Shown here: one piece after another, positions 2,512-32,192 of the stretch
How positions within the stretch are numbered: the first letter of the stretch is position 1
Layout: each line of letters begins with the position of its first letter
NCBI GenBank assembly: GCA_017999985.1
Contig: JAGNKU010000001.1
Span: 611,276 to 675,275 of the forward strand
Direction of reading: 5' to 3'
Length of the DNA stretch: 64,000 bases
Source: Phycisphaerae bacterium
Lineage (GTDB): Bacteria > Planctomycetota > Phycisphaerae > UBA1845 > Fen-1342
Program-made: the position numbers and the translations under genes
Notes under the pieces: generated by a model
Database searches by the model: none
Seen by the model: only the letters and a program-made list of their open reading frames with translations
What the model was told of the DNA's origin: nothing

Positions 2512-3276
2512 CTACTCACCGGGTCGCGCTGCCGCGACGGGCGTTACGGGCGTGGCCGGCGGCGTCGGGGCGGGGGACGCGGGTACCAGCGGGTTGACGG
2601 GAGTGTTCGGCATGACGACGGCACTGGCCGGCAACGTCCGCGGCACCACGGTCAGCACGTCGTCAAACAGCCGCCGAATCTCGATCGCCGCGCGCCGGCC
2701 GCTGTCGCCCAGCTTCCAGACTACGGTGCCCTTGCCGCAGGCTTCGGCATAGGCCTGTCGGAGACAGAGGCACGTCCGCGCCAGTGGGAACCCGTATTTG
2801 CCGACGGCCTCCATCGCGATCTGGGCCAGGCGCGTGCGCGGCTGCACGCGGTTCAGGATCGTCACGACCTGGGGACGCTCCGTACGATGCACGCGCAGCC
2901 GGAGGTTGTAGAGCATCCGCGCCGTGCGATACGAGGCGCGCACATCCATCATCGACGGCCCGATCGGCAGCAGCACCAGGTCGGCGGCCGCCGCCAGCAC
3001 CACCGTCTCCGCGCTCAGTGCCGCCGGCCCATCCGCGAGCACGACGTCGTAGACCGCACTGAGCCGCGGCAGGCGCTCATTCAGCTGGGCGACCGTCTCG
3101 CAGCGCTCGATGCGCAGGCCCGGCGCGGCCTGCGCCAGCCACTCAGACGTGCTCGCCTGGGCGTCGGCGTCGACCACCGCCAACCGGACCCCGCGCTCGC
3201 GCAACCAGACGGCGGCGTGGACGGCAATCGTGGACTTCCCCACGCCGCCCTTGCTGTTTACAACTGCGACAAACAT
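2512..3276 (-). CDS. ParA/MinD-like ATPase
   Basis: A 254-residue P-loop ATPase. Residues 8-16 form the deviant Walker A box SKGGVGKST with both lysines, followed by the switch-like VVDADAQAST and a Walker B-like VVLADGPAAL. It is closest in look to stand-alone ParA proteins that act in partitioning or in positioning cellular machines. The C-terminal 40 residues are a Pro/Ala/Val low-complexity tail (PNTPVNPLVPASPAPTPP). No ParB gene or parS-like site was seen nearby, so a chromosome-partition role is not supported. It starts 12 bases after the diguanylate cyclase stop, implying one transcript; a role in localising motility or signalling proteins is only a guess. Confidence 0.8.
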   Translation of the reverse strand: MFVAVVNSKGGVGKSTIAVHAAVWLRERGVRLAVVDADAQASTSEWLAQAAPGLRIERCETVAQLNERLPRLSAVYDVVLADGPAALSAETVVLAAAADLVLLPIGPSMMDVRASYRTARMLYNLRLRVHRTERPQVVTILNRVQPRTRLAQIAMEAVGKYGFPLARTCLCLRQAYAEACGKGTVVWKLGDSGRRAAIEIRRLFDDVLTVVPRTLPASAVVMPNTPVNPLVPASPAPTPPATPVTPVAAARPGE

Positions 3277-26937: not shown

Positions 26938-29061
26938 ATGCCGCGTACGCTCGAAGAAATCCCGGCCCTGCAGTTCATGGCCCGCAACCGCGGACTGCTG
27001 TTCCCCATCGCGGCGGCGGCGCTGATCTTCGTCATCCTCATCCCGCTGCCGACCATGGCGCTGGATTTTCTCCTGCTCACCAACATGCTGCTGACGACGG
27101 TCGTGCTCATGACCGTCATGTACATCCGCAGCCCGCTCGAGTTTTCCAGCTTCCCCTCGCTGCTGCTGGCCCTCACGCTCTTCCGCCTCGTCCTGAACAC
27201 CGCTACTACCCGGCTCATTCTCGCCAACGGCGCCCAGGGCACCACCGCCGCCGGCCACGTCGTCGAGGCCTTCGGCCTGTTCGTGTCGGCCAACTCGCTC
27301 GCCGTCGGCGTGATCATCTTCCTGATCATCACCGTGATCCAGTTCGTCGTCATCACCAAGGGCGCCACGCGCATCGCCGAAGTCGCGGCCCGCTTCACGC
27401 TGGACGGCATGCCCGGCAAGCAGATGGCCATCGACGCCGACCTGAACGCCGGCAGCATCGACGAGGCCGAGGCCCGTCGCCGCCGCACCGAGATCGCCCG
27501 CGAATCGGACTTCTACGGGGCCATGGACGGTGCCAGCAAGTTCGTCCGCGGCGACGCCATCGCCGGCATCATCATCACGTTCGTCAACATCCTCGGCGGC
27601 CTCTACGTCGGCATGGTCGAGCACAACCTCTCGCTGATGCAGTCGCTCGAAATCTACACCAAGCTGACCATCGGCGACGGCCTCGCCAGTCAGATCCCCG
27701 CGTTCATCATCTCAGTCGGCGCGGGCATGCTCGTTACCCGCAGCACGGGCCAGACCAACATGGGCGAGGAAGTGCTCGGCCAGTTGCTCGCCAAGCCGAC
27801 GGCCCTGCTCGTCGCCGCGGGCTTCCTCTTCGTCATGACGTTGACGCCGCTGCCGAAGGTCCCCCTGCTGACCATGGCCAGCGGGTGCGGCCTGCTCGCC
27901 TATTTCCTGAAGCGCACGCAGACGCGGGCTGCCGTGCGGCAGGTCACCGAGCAGCGCACCCGGGAGCGGGCCAAGCCTGAGAAGATCGAGAGCCACCTCA
28001 GCGTCGACCCGCTCGAACTGCAGGTGGGTTTCGGGCTGGTCCGGCTGATCGACCGCGCCCGCGGCGGCGACATGCTCGACCGCATCGCGGGCATCCGCAA
28101 GCAGATCGCCCTCGACCTGGGCCTGGTCGTGCCGCCGGTGCGCATCCGCGACCACGCCGAACTCAAGCCGCACCAGTATCGCGTTCTGCTCCGCGGGCAG
28201 GAGATCGCGCGCGACGAGCTTTACCCCGACCAGTTGCTGGCCATCGACTCCGGCCTGGCCAGCCAGCACCTGAATGGCATCGAGGTACGCGAGCCGGCCT
28301 TCGGCCTGCGCGCCTGGTGGATCGAACCCGCCCAGCGCGACCACGCCGAGCGGGCGAACTACACGATCGTCGAGCCGTCCGGCGTGCTCGCGACGCACCT
28401 CACCGAGATCATCAAGCGGCACGCCGCCGACCTGCTGACGCGCGCGGACACCCAGGCCCTGCTGGACCATCTCAAGCAGCGCAACGCCGGCCTCGTCGAC
28501 GAGGTCGTGCCCAACCTGCTGAAGACCGGGCAGGTGCAGAAGGTGCTGCAGGGCCTGCTGCACGAGCGCGTGCCCGTCCGCGACCTGGAGACTATCCTCG
28601 AAATCCTCGGCGACTGGGCGCCGAAGACCAAGGACCTCGAAATCCTGACGGAGTACGCCCGCAACGGCTTGGCCCGCACGATCTGCGCCCAGTACAAGGA
28701 TCCCGCCGGCGTCATCCACGTCGTGACGCTCGATCCCGCGACGGAGGATTACATCCAGGGCAACATCCAGCGGCTCGAGAGCGGCTCGTCGCTCGCGCTG
28801 CCGCCCGACCGCCAGGCCGAGCTGGCCGTGAAATGCAAACGCCAGGTGGAAGCCGCCGCCGCCAATGCCGGCGCCGCGCCGGTCGCCGTGTTGTGTTCTC
28901 CCCAGGTGCGCCTGTGGACCCGCCGGGTCATCGAGCCCGTGCTGCCGCAGACGCCCGTGCTCGCGCTCAACGAGATCGTGCGCGGCATCGATGTCCAGGC
29001 TCACGGAGTAGTCAGCCTTGAATTCCAGCGTGCGAACGTTCCAAGCCCCGTCCATGCGTGA
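26938..29061 (+). CDS. flhA: Flagellar export gate protein FlhA
   Basis: A 707-residue FHIPEP-family protein. The N-terminal half holds about eight membrane helices and the conserved cytoplasmic FHIPEP segment (RFTLDGMPGKQMAIDADLNA, RRRRTEIARESDFYGAMDGA). The C-terminal half is the docking domain for export chaperones, with LLKTGQVQKVLQGLLHERV and VRDLETILEILGDWAPKTKD. It forms the nonameric ring that converts proton flow into export. Its end overlaps the flhF start by 44 bases. Length is typical. Confidence 0.96.
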   Translation: MPRTLEEIPALQFMARNRGLLFPIAAAALIFVILIPLPTMALDFLLLTNMLLTTVVLMTVMYIRSPLEFSSFPSLLLALTLFRLVLNTATTRLILANGAQGTTAAGHVVEAFGLFVSANSLAVGVIIFLIITVIQFVVITKGATRIAEVAARFTLDGMPGKQMAIDADLNAGSIDEAEARRRRTEIARESDFYGAMDGASKFVRGDAIAGIIITFVNILGGLYVGMVEHNLSLMQSLEIYTKLTIGDGLASQIPAFIISVGAGMLVTRSTGQTNMGEEVLGQLLAKPTALLVAAGFLFVMTLTPLPKVPLLTMASGCGLLAYFLKRTQTRAAVRQVTEQRTRERAKPEKIESHLSVDPLELQVGFGLVRLIDRARGGDMLDRIAGIRKQIALDLGLVVPPVRIRDHAELKPHQYRVLLRGQEIARDELYPDQLLAIDSGLASQHLNGIEVREPAFGLRAWWIEPAQRDHAERANYTIVEPSGVLATHLTEIIKRHAADLLTRADTQALLDHLKQRNAGLVDEVVPNLLKTGQVQKVLQGLLHERVPVRDLETILEILGDWAPKTKDLEILTEYARNGLARTICAQYKDPAGVIHVVTLDPATEDYIQGNIQRLESGSSLALPPDRQAELAVKCKRQVEAAAANAGAAPVAVLCSPQVRLWTRRVIEPVLPQTPVLALNEIVRGIDVQAHGVVSLEFQRANVPSPVHA

Positions 29062-30070
29062 AGCGCTGGAGCGCGTCAAAAGCGCGCTGGGGCCCGACGC
29101 CGTCATCCTCGGGACGCGCAGCCTGCCGGCGCCCGGCCTGGGCGGACTGGCCGGGCGGCAGCGCGTCGAGATCACCGCGGCCCCGCCGGGCCTGGCCACG
29201 CCGGCCCCGCGCGTCCGCCGGCGGCGCGCGGAAACCGCGTCCGCCGCCGCACCCGCCGCCCAGGCGGAAACACCGGCGCTGCCCCAGCACCTGTACCCGT
29301 ACTACGTTCAGTTGGTCCAGAATGAAGTGGCCGCGGAACTTGCCGCGCGCCTCGTCCGGCAGGCGGCCACGCGCGTCACCGATGGCCCCCACACCGAGCC
29401 TACCGTGCTGCGCGCCGCCCTGCGCGATTACATCGCGCAACTGCTGCCCCAGGCTGGCGGCATCGACCTCTCCGCGGGCACGCCGCGGCGCGTCGCGCTG
29501 GTCGGCCCGTCGGGCAGCGGCAAGACGACCACGCTGGCGAAGCTGGCCGCGCACTTCAAGCTGCGCCAGCGGCGCCGGGTCGCGCTGCTCTCGCTGGATA
29601 CGCATCGGCTGGCGGCGCACGAGCAGCTGCGCCGCTACGCCGAGGTCATCGACGTCCCCCTGCACACCGCGCAGACGATTGCCGAGGTCAAGCAGTGCCG
29701 CCAGGCGCTTGCCGACGTGGACGTGCTGCTGATCGACACGCCCGGCGTCGGGCTGCGCGAGCAGGGCCGCTTCGCCCGCCTTGCCACACTGCTCCGCGCG
29801 GCGCGTCCCGATGAGACGCACCTCGTCGTGCCTGCGTCGCTCGCACCCGAGGTCCAGGTGCGCGTCGCGCAGAGCTTCGCGCCGCTGGGCGTGGCCCGCG
29901 CCGTGCTCACGCGCCTGGACGACGCCGTCGGCTTCGGCGTCGTCCTGAACGTCGTGCAGCGTCTGAACCTGGGCGTGTCGTACCTCACCACCGGGCAAAA
30001 TGTGCCCAATGACATCGAAGAGGCTTGCAGCACACGCGTGGCGGAATTACTGTTAGCGCCCAACGCGTAA
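29018..30070 (+). CDS. flhF: Flagellar positioning SRP-type GTPase FlhF, with altered G3 motif
   Basis: A 350-residue SRP-GTPase. The start TFQAPSMREALERVKSALG is typical; a basic Ala-rich linker follows; the NG domain holds P-loop GPSGSGKTT at 163-171 and LDTHRLAAHEQLRRYAEV. The G3 box usually DTAGR reads DTPGVG at 240-245, and TKLD reads TRLD. FlhF places the flagellum at the pole. The TTG at 29018 (GGAG nine bases upstream) is taken as start and overlaps flhA; GTG 29030 is an alternative four codons in. Binding motifs are otherwise complete. Confidence 0.9.
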   Translation: MNSSVRTFQAPSMREALERVKSALGPDAVILGTRSLPAPGLGGLAGRQRVEITAAPPGLATPAPRVRRRRAETASAAAPAAQAETPALPQHLYPYYVQLVQNEVAAELAARLVRQAATRVTDGPHTEPTVLRAALRDYIAQLLPQAGGIDLSAGTPRRVALVGPSGSGKTTTLAKLAAHFKLRQRRRVALLSLDTHRLAAHEQLRRYAEVIDVPLHTAQTIAEVKQCRQALADVDVLLIDTPGVGLREQGRFARLATLLRAARPDETHLVVPASLAPEVQVRVAQSFAPLGVARAVLTRLDDAVGFGVVLNVVQRLNLGVSYLTTGQNVPNDIEEACSTRVAELLLAPNA

Positions 30071-30095: not shown

Positions 30096-30932
30096 ATGGA
30101 CCACGTCCACGGCGTGCATCTGGGACGGGTGGCGGAAGGGAAGCCGGCCGGGGGTTGTGTTGTCACGCTCCTCAGCGGCAAGGGCGGCATCGGCCAGACC
30201 AACGTCGCGCTGAATCTCGGCCTCGCGCTCGCGCGCCGCGGCTGCCGCACGCTGCTGCTCGATGCACACGCCAGCCCACCCGCGGCCCGACTCCTACTCG
30301 GAAGCTCCCTGTGCACCACGGCCCGCGCGCTGCGGCCGCACGGCAGCCGGCGGCCGCGCGCGCCCGCCGAACTACTGGCCCTCGGGTCTGCGCCGGTCGA
30401 ACTCGGGCGGGCCGCGGACCGCGACGCGGCCGGCATCGAGAACTCCACGACGCTCACGCGCCTGCGCCGCCGTTACGACGTACTGCTCGTGGATTGCGGC
30501 AGCTGCCTGAACCGCGTGACCGTGGCACTCGCGCGGGCCAGCGATCTGCGCATCTGGCTCACCGCGCCGGAACCCGCGGCCCTCGCCGGCACGTACGCCG
30601 CGGTGAAGGCGCTTACCGCCTGCGGTTGCCTGGGCCGCTCCGGGGTCGTCGTGAACATGGCGCGCTCCCGGTCGGATGCGGCGCAGACCGCCGGGCGTCT
30701 GGCGAGCGTGGCGCAACGCTTTCTCGGACTCACGCTGGAACTGCTCGGTTACGTGCCGTTCGATGCTCACGTCCCCGCCGCCGTCCGGCAGCGCCGGCCG
30801 CTGCTCGTGCGGTTTCCGCGCTGTCCCGCAAGTGTGCACATTGACGCGCTTTGCGACCGGCTCGGCCCCGCGGTGCCGGGGGGGCGGCGGCGCAGCGGCG
30901 TGTGGGCGCACGTTGCCAGCCTGTTTCTTTAG
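30096..30932 (+). CDS. flhG: Flagellar number regulator FlhG (MinD-like), degenerate P-loop
   Basis: A 278-residue MinD/ParA-family protein next to flhF. The deviant Walker A box reads SGKGGIGQTN at 27-36: the signature Lys (29) is present but the phosphate-binding Lys is Gln (34, codon CAG). The following block is LLLDAHAS instead of the usual LLLDADxG, and the Walker B-like VDCGSC is kept. FlhG normally hydrolyses ATP, dimerises and limits flagellar number while stimulating FlhF. With these changes, ATP hydrolysis is doubtful. A C-terminal membrane-targeting helix may be WAHVASLFL. ATG 30096 has no good ribosome site; GTG 30114 is possible. Confidence 0.8.
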   Translation: MDHVHGVHLGRVAEGKPAGGCVVTLLSGKGGIGQTNVALNLGLALARRGCRTLLLDAHASPPAARLLLGSSLCTTARALRPHGSRRPRAPAELLALGSAPVELGRAADRDAAGIENSTTLTRLRRRYDVLLVDCGSCLNRVTVALARASDLRIWLTAPEPAALAGTYAAVKALTACGCLGRSGVVVNMARSRSDAAQTAGRLASVAQRFLGLTLELLGYVPFDAHVPAAVRQRRPLLVRFPRCPASVHIDALCDRLGPAVPGGRRRSGVWAHVASLFL

Positions 30933-31005
30933 CCTGATCCTCTGAGGGTTTTCCCTGCCCGGGGACGGAAATGCGGGGGTTCGTCGGGCGCTTCGGGTCT
31001 CCGGA

Positions 31006-31034
31006 TACAAGGCCGCGCCGTACCAGACCGATAG
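31006..31034 (+). promoter_or_regulatory. Candidate sigma28 promoter before the small membrane gene and fliA
   Basis: TACA, then 17 bases, then ACCGATAG, resembling the flagellar sigma28 pattern with a slightly long spacer. A start near 31041 would lie about 11 bases before the ATG at 31052 and could give autoregulated expression of fliA. Support is a short motif only; the spacing matches the candidates near flgM and the diguanylate cyclase. Confidence 0.3.
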
Positions 31035-31051
31035 GAATCTCGGAAGCCGAT

Positions 31052-31342
31052 ATGATCCGACACACCGGTGCACAAATCGGTCTGCTCGCATTTGCCGTCG
31101 CGGTCGTGGCGGGTCTGTACGCGGGGAACCCGGCGACGGTCATTCTTATGCGCGCGCTGCTGGCACTGCTGGGCGGGGTCGTGATTGGCCAGCTCGCGGG
31201 CTGGGCGGCCAAGCTTGTCCTGCGCGACCACCTGCAGAGACGCAAGCTGCACATCGATCGGGAGCACCTGGAGGCCATGCGGGCGCTGACTCCACCAGCC
31301 GACGTGCGTGAGGCGACGGCTGAGCCGGCCGAAGTGAGTTAG
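31052..31342 (+). CDS. Small two-helix membrane protein of unknown function
   Basis: A 96-residue protein with two membrane helices (about residues 8-24, IGLLAFAVAVVAGLYAG; and 31-54, ILMRALLALLGGVVIGQLAG) and a charged C-terminal cytoplasmic tail (LRDHLQRRKLHIDREHLEAM). ATG 31052 is used; an in-frame start at 30971 would add an unconvincing Arg-rich leader. It lies 119 bases after flhG and only one base before the fliA start, so it is likely translated from the same message as fliA. I do not recognise the family; a role in motility is suggested by position only. Confidence 0.7.
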   Translation: MIRHTGAQIGLLAFAVAVVAGLYAGNPATVILMRALLALLGGVVIGQLAGWAAKLVLRDHLQRRKLHIDREHLEAMRALTPPADVREATAEPAEVS

Positions 31343-31343
31343 G

Positions 31344-32192
31344 ATGATGAATCGAGGCATGCGTTCCAACGGGCGGCTTCGCCGGGTCAGTCGCGACCAC
31401 CACGCGCAGTCGTTCCCCGATGCCGAGAGCCTGGCCACCGCGTGGCGCGAGTTTCGGGCGAGCGGCGACGATCACATCCGCAACCGCCTGATCGAGCACT
31501 ACCTGTACCTGGTGCGCTACAACGCCGAGCGGATCGGCGCGAAACTGCCGGACGAGGTCGATGTCGATGACCTGATGAGCGCCGGCATCTTCGGGCTGGT
31601 CGACGCGCTGGACGCGTTCGATGTCGAGCGCGGCGTGAAGTTCGAGACATACTGCGCGCCGCGCATTCGCGGGGCGATTCTGGACGAGCTGCGCAACATG
31701 GACTGGGTGCCGCGGCTGGTTCGCCATCGGGCCCACAAGCTGGCCGACGCCACGCGGGCGCTGGAGGCCGAGCTCGGCCGCGTACCGAACGATGAAGAGG
31801 TGGCCCGCCGGCTGAACATGACCCGGCCGCAGTTCCACAAGCTGCTGCAGGACGCGAACGCCGTCTCACTGATCTCGCTGTCGCGCAAGTACACCGACCC
31901 GGACTCGCAGCGCGACGTGTTTGAGATCGACGTGCTGCCCGACGACCGCGGCAGCGACCCGGTGGTCGAGGCGCAGAAGCAGGATCTCAAGGACCTGATC
32001 ACGCGCGGCCTGAGCCGGGCCGAGCGGCTGATCGTCGTGCTGTACTACTACGAGCAGATGACCATGAAGCAGATCGGGCAGACGCTGGACCTCTCCGAGT
32101 CCCGCGTCAGCCAGATGCACTCCGCCATCCTGGATCGTCTGCGGGCCCAGTTGCAGGCCCGGCGAAAGGAGCTGGTGCCCGACCTGCAGTGA
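31344..32192 (+). CDS. fliA: Flagellar RNA polymerase sigma factor FliA (sigma28/WhiG class)
   Basis: A 282-residue group 3 sigma factor. Region 2 has RNRLIEHYLYLVRYNAERIG, DDLMSAGIFGLVDALDAFD and GVKFETYCAPRIRGAILDEL followed by RNMDWVPR, the FliA/WhiG hallmark. Region 3 (RALEAELGRVPNDEEVARRL) and region 4 (YYYEQMTMKQIGQTLDLSES) are intact. It directs late flagellar genes and is expected to be held by FlgM, encoded at 54.3 kb. The ATG at 31344 is directly followed by a second ATG; a third Met lies five codons in. It ends 16 bases before the next small gene. Confidence 0.93.
   Translation: MMNRGMRSNGRLRRVSRDHHAQSFPDAESLATAWREFRASGDDHIRNRLIEHYLYLVRYNAERIGAKLPDEVDVDDLMSAGIFGLVDALDAFDVERGVKFETYCAPRIRGAILDELRNMDWVPRLVRHRAHKLADATRALEAELGRVPNDEEVARRLNMTRPQFHKLLQDANAVSLISLSRKYTDPDSQRDVFEIDVLPDDRGSDPVVEAQKQDLKDLITRGLSRAERLIVVLYYYEQMTMKQIGQTLDLSESRVSQMHSAILDRLRAQLQARRKELVPDLQ

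Follow-up and report, generated by a model that had tools for sequence, protein, structure and literature searches.

An FlhG with a degenerate ATP site is encoded in the window, by which we mean the whole 64,000-nucleotide stretch of DNA that was analysed (source genome assembly of 5.23 Mb in 31 contigs). Judging from the sequences, this site has been inactivated many times independently in the family of Phycisphaerae to which the window belongs (family f1), through different residues in different lineages. We consider it probable that the protein is a pseudo-ATPase left over from a dismantled FlhF-FlhG switch, that it is decaying and on its way to being lost, and that its C-terminal half keeps a residual role independent of nucleotide.

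By position, sequence and predicted fold, the window protein is a genuine FlhG orthologue. Its reading frame runs through 278 codons without stop or frameshift (positions of all features are given in Table 1), and the composition of its codon positions is what a real gene shows (none of 2000 shuffles was equally uneven). It lies directly downstream of flhF and ahead of fliA in a flagellar operon of the order fliR-flhB-flhA-flhF-flhG-fliA; besides fliR, flhB and flhA, the cluster includes a histidine kinase, a sigma-54 response regulator, a rod protein (flgC-like), fliI, fliK, flgE and fliP. A PDB sequence search returned FlhG (4rz2/4rz3, E 2e-25) as the best match, with FleN next. An AlphaFold2 model had a mean pLDDT of 79, with residues 73-98 below 50, and a Foldseek search with this model placed FlhG 4rz3 and 4rz2 on top (4rz3 E 4.9e-18; TM 0.69-0.78), indicating a MinD-like fold. 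The preliminary description of this gene, as one for an FlhG whose ATP site is degenerate and whose genome is flagellar, holds. Of the 29 conserved positions that lie outside the ATP site, the protein as a whole keeps 25. The C-terminal helix is predicted at residues 269-277; its position and residues are conserved among the FlhGs of the family, and its hydrophobic moment is no better than that of shuffled sequences in most members, intact FlhGs included. A small protein with hydrophobic stretches just ahead of fliA is present in most of the planctomycete loci searched (L129-L208), flhG-less ones too; in the window, its longer frame (30971-31342) had no match in Pfam or NCBIfam.

Table 1. Coordinates of the features discussed, numbered within the window
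Feature	Position	Strand	Remarks
flhA	26938..29061	+	
flhF	29018..30070	+	350 aa; SRP-type GTPase with altered motifs
FlhF motif III (G3)	29735..29749	+	DTPGV replacing DTAGR; Arg missing in every family FlhF read
flhG	30096..30932	+	278 aa; FlhG orthologue with ruined ATP site, by ORF, synteny and best PDB sequence and fold matches (4rz2/4rz3)
Deviant Walker A of FlhG	30174..30203	+	SGKGGIGQTN; P-loop Lys replaced by Gln34 (codon 30195-30197, CAG)
Switch I of FlhG	30261..30290	+	DAHASPPAAR in place of DADxGLANAD; catalytic Asp replaced by His58; DAHAS at 30261-30275
C-terminal half of FlhG, residues 144-278	30525..30929	+	better conserved part; pLDDT mostly >90
C-terminal helix of FlhG	30897..30929	+	GVWAHVASLFL; located where FlhG/MinD proteins have their membrane-targeting sequence
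Small protein with hydrophobic stretches	31052..31342	+	96 aa; retained ahead of fliA even in loci without flhG
fliA	31344..32192	+	flagellar sigma factor

The FlhG hallmark KGGxGK[ST] reads KGGIGQT in the window copy. The two departures first reported, Lys to Gln in the P-loop and DAHAS in place of the usual DAD, were both confirmed at the positions listed, and the loss proved to be wider, reaching through switch I and the surroundings of Walker B. In switch I, G60, A62, N63 and D65 are all substituted, and H58 stands where relatives carry the hydrolytic Asp; next to Walker B, relatives have D133-C-G-A-G and the window has D-C-G-S-C. The N-terminal enhancer helix DQAxxLR is missing as well. 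In Vibrio, FlhG proteins mutated in Walker A no longer hydrolyse ATP, localise to the pole or function, while the catalytic Asp mutant, D60A, shows a slight effect only (PMC7226244). The combination of residues lost in the window should make its ATPase inactive, and ATP is probably not bound. When loss at ATP-site positions was compared with loss at other conserved positions (Fisher), the excess gave p 0.07 for the window and p <0.05 in only two of seven proteins. The persistence of Lys29, Gly31, Gly33, Thr35 and Asp56 could mean that nucleotide binding is altered, for instance via Lys29, Gln34 standing in as a polar residue, in which case FlhG would be slow and would sense ATP. We find this improbable in view of H58, the lost switch I, the changed Walker B surroundings, the very low AlphaFold confidence for residues 73-98, and the non-functional Vibrio Walker A mutants.

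A second, intact flhG elsewhere in the genome, suggested as a point to check, was not found. The genome does hold several other intact KGGxGK[ST] proteins, one of which, ParA-like (2512-3276, minus strand, SKGGVGKST), lies upstream of the flagellar cluster. Another MinD/ParA ATPase might have taken over the work of FlhG and so released it from constraint, but the candidates resemble ParA/Soj, Mrp/ApbC and similar families, none has DQAxxLR, and family members with intact FlhG also carry further ParA/MinD-like proteins, all of which makes such a takeover very improbable.

The family is represented by 27 genomes, the named relatives being MAGs, and the state of flhG was assessed by reading the DNA downstream of flhF. 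Flagellin was found in 26 of the 27, FliM in 24, and flhF in 24. Among the flhF-bearing genomes, 5 had an intact flhG, 8 a dead and 2 a broken one; in 8 none was found, and 1 was unreadable (G024, with 581 bp read after flhF up to the contig end and no FlhG there); the gene is gone in about a third of them. The ATP site is intact in G003, G007, G013, G014 and G018. The dead FlhGs are of full or nearly full length and comprise, besides the window copy, those of G026 (SGQGGLGKTN, GADLA), G016 (SGRGGLGKTN, GADLA), G002 (SGQRGVGKTS, DAGRG; Lys29 and Asp58 lost), G004 (SGVDGVGRTT, DARDG; both Lys lost), G011 (SGLGGAGTST), G020 (SPARGCGATT) and G008 (GGAAGVGASS). Of the two broken genes, that of G021 encodes what is left of the P-loop in one frame and the C-terminus in another, and that of G006 (L118, about 1276-1563 of the oriented locus) keeps the FlhG N-terminus with an intact P-loop, which a deletion fuses to the following small gene. 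In seven genomes (G001, G009, G010, G012, G015, G017 and G022), flhG is absent from the flhF-fliA interval, which measures 400-725 bp and contains the small conserved gene alone; a sensitive tblastn search for an FlhG remnant in these seven intervals gave no convincing match. In the single-contig genome G023, where flhF is located elsewhere, no FlhG-like protein stands out. We also observed in G014 a second FlhG-like frame (G014:C31:6909-7667; L048, L079; 514 aa, SGKGGVGKTW) beside the syntenic one, possibly from another flagellar system or from contamination.

Position 34 is Lys in all five intact FlhGs of the family and in nearly all relatives outside it. The possibility that Gln34 might be conserved in relatives was not borne out. 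In the family, 13 full-length FlhGs were read, 5 intact and 8 dead; Gln is peculiar to the window copy, Lys occupies the site in the intact proteins, and the remaining dead ones carry Lys, Arg, Ala or Thr, so that we are not dealing with a stable Gln-type regulator common to the relatives. Nor is it an isolated mutation among intact relatives, as seven further FlhGs of the family are dead at other residues. A sequencing or assembly error behind Gln34 would require a single substitution (AAG to CAG), and the relatives compared include no same-genus genome. An error at this one codon is conceivable, but by itself it leaves unexplained H58 and the four other switch I changes, which are independent of K34Q, and with seven relatives dead at other residues, error is scarcely credible as the explanation of the degenerate site.

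To place these states in a phylogenetic context, a tree was built on FlhA+FlhF+FliA from the family and 16 outgroup loci. The family formed one clade (support 100), within which several deep branches were weak. Intact, dead and gone states were intermixed on this tree, a distribution for which unconstrained parsimony needs at least 4 changes; under irreversible loss, about 8 clades without an intact member were counted manually. The comparison of the window with its near relatives G016 and G026 is informative: the window copy has kept Lys29 and lost Lys34 and Asp58, whereas G016 and G026 have kept Lys34 and Asp58 and lost Lys29, Asp56 and Asp133. No P-loop or catalytic loss is held in common, and the inactivations are therefore independent; most simply, the common ancestor of the three copies would have had all these residues. 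In G010, the sister of the window on the tree, flhG is lost without remnant.

Evolutionary rates were derived from tip branch lengths on a fixed topology, relative to FlhA+FlhF+FliA. The ratio for the ATP half was 3.5-11.3 in dead FlhGs versus 1.0-2.7 in intact ones (exact P = 0.0025); for the C half, the difference between dead and intact was not significant (P = 0.07). The highest ATP-half ratio, 11.3 (branch of 1.7 per site), was that of the window, with 4.8 for its C half. Selection was measured on the dead same-genus pair G016/G026, a lineage other than the window's. Its FlhG had a dN/dS of 0.30 (bootstrap 0.18-0.48), the N half standing at 0.42 and the C half at 0.18, compared to 0.09-0.19 for five neighbouring genes, and the pair showed 30 amino-acid differences versus a minimum of 33 in 2000 neutral simulations. 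A dead FlhG can thus stay under purifying selection, mainly in its C half. For the window, where both halves are fast, the copy may be a gene about to die; most likely, it is either a pseudo-ATPase with a residual role in the C half or a gene close to loss.

Two other readings bear on these figures. One is that dead FlhG is a neofunctionalised pseudoenzyme that is not disappearing: it would have taken on a new role independent of nucleotide, as scaffold, anti-activator or membrane anchor, and this role would be actively maintained. Open, near-full-length frames in 8 dead lineages, the dN/dS of the dead pair, overall and in the C half, the conserved C-terminal end and the intact codon-position signal are all consistent with it. 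However, the sister of the window and several other lineages have neither flhG nor a remnant, two more have broken remnants, and the inactivating residues vary by lineage with raised rates, a pattern more in keeping with relaxation than with a new role common to all; we therefore regard this reading as unlikely. The initial proposal of a regulator that works without hydrolysis survives in part: it is possible for the C half, given the dN/dS of 0.18 in the dead pair, but relaxed constraint and decay cover more of the data. The other reading is pure pseudogene drift, in which dead copies are functionless and the window owes its open frame to luck and recency. An ATP half evolving 11 times faster than the neighbours and an flhG broken or not found in ten relatives point in this direction. 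We nevertheless find it quite unlikely, as neutral equilibrium at a GC of 0.65-0.70 would give about 5-7 stops where the window has an unbroken frame with an intact codon-position pattern, and as the G016/G026 pair rejects neutrality.

The partner GTPase has changed as well. The window FlhF passes the TIGR03499 family model (184.9 bits, for a cut-off of 174.15) and departs from the canonical SRP-GTPase motifs, with DTPGV for DTAGR and TRLD for TKLD. Motif III is of the form DT[PHS]G[VILM] in 23 of the 23 family FlhFs in which it is readable, and TKLD is changed to TRLD or otherwise in nearly all. The DQAxxLR helix is absent from every family FlhG read. The Gln of this helix is co-catalytic for FlhF (PMC12826062), and SRP GTPases have DTAGR as their conserved motif III (PMC2572998); by analogy, its Arg probably matters for FlhF catalysis. 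Outside the family, the FlhG helix and the FlhF Arg are both present at nearly every locus, about 100 in number. Both are missing, with the FlhG gene retained, at L143, L150 and L162, and perhaps at a fourth locus, L271; the helix is present and the Arg missing at two loci. The resulting two-by-two table of helix against Arg was 98/4/2/17, the last cell being mostly this single family, and in phylogenetically independent pairs the co-loss went in the same direction and was not significant (sign test P ≥ 0.25; three or four outside lineages). Because one family dominates the last cell and independent pairs are too few, the link between FlhG degeneration or helix loss and the lost Arg of FlhF is suggestive. 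The five family FlhGs with an intact site also lack the helix, which implies that helix loss alone does not immediately release FlhG from constraint.

We propose the following history. In the ancestor of the family, the FlhF-FlhG switch would have been dismantled: the N-terminal DQAxxLR helix would have disappeared from FlhG, and with it the Gln that completes the active site of FlhF; FlhF would have lost the Arg of DTAGR, and others of its GTPase motifs would have changed. With no FlhF cycle left to drive, selection on the ATP-controlled dimerisation and membrane cycling of FlhG would have been weak. The ATP site would then have been destroyed separately in many lineages, the window's included, and in others flhG would have been broken or deleted, with flhF, flhA, fliA and flagellin retained. 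The surviving dead copies are probably still produced at full length, their C half and terminal helix keeping a nucleotide-independent function, most likely as a constitutively monomeric, weakly membrane-associated partner of a protein of the flagellar base or of a regulatory protein. We infer this order of events, and this residual role, from sequence comparison. Rather tentatively, FlhF itself may here be a GTP-binding positioner with little or no hydrolysis and without activator, and the number of flagella may be set without an FlhF-FlhG cycle, perhaps with help from the small protein ahead of fliA, dead FlhG serving as a nucleotide-independent accessory.

A phylum-wide search for FlhF yielded 131 FlhF loci outside the family. 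FlhG carried KGGxGK[ST] in 101 of these and was non-canonical in 12; none was found in the available DNA of 18, a few of which lie on contigs that end early. Several of the 12 non-canonical FlhGs (Adhaeretor L200, Pirellula L201, L191, L209, L217, L230) resemble the window FlhG in gene position and in having lost KGGxGK[ST], but they keep DQAxxLR together with the DTAGR of FlhF, both of which are missing in the window family. As these dead P-loops coexist with an intact helix and FlhF motif, they suggest a second mode of degeneration outside the family, in which the ATPase would be lost and the FlhF activator retained. Separately, L207, L211, L212, L224 and others outside the family have flhF without a recognisable flhG downstream.

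FlhF and FlhG have been described as a fixed pair, and a 2025 review states that flhF and flhG are consistently encoded together (PMC12826062). Here, a single family displays a series from intact to dead, broken and absent FlhG, in which FlhF and the flagellar genes are kept. A term search of that review found no mention of planctomycetes or of degenerate FlhG, and no paper linking planctomycetes with FlhG degeneration was found in the open-licence literature. The series reveals which parts of FlhG become dispensable once FlhF is altered, offers natural comparisons for the role of GTP hydrolysis by FlhF, and predicts a different control of flagellar number in these bacteria. It also calls for caution in annotation: such proteins should not be named ATPases.

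Compared with FlhG/FleN/YlxH, the MinD-like ATPase of the FlhF-FlhG switch, the window protein shares the flhA-flhF-flhG-fliA order, the MinD-like fold, the matches to 4rz2/4rz3 and FleN and the place of the C-terminal helix, but it lacks the P-loop Lys, the catalytic Asp, switch I and the DQAxxLR enhancer helix. It can be viewed as the natural counterpart of a laboratory ATP-site mutant, such as K31A among the Walker A mutants of Vibrio alginolyticus FlhG (PMC7226244), with the difference that losses of the window type have been fixed in nature, are repeated across the family, and are accompanied by a changed FlhF. E. coli and Salmonella are flagellated bacteria without a working FlhG, as the bacterium of the window would be; they, however, lack both flhF and flhG (PMC12826062), whereas the window family keeps FlhF, and only FlhG decays.
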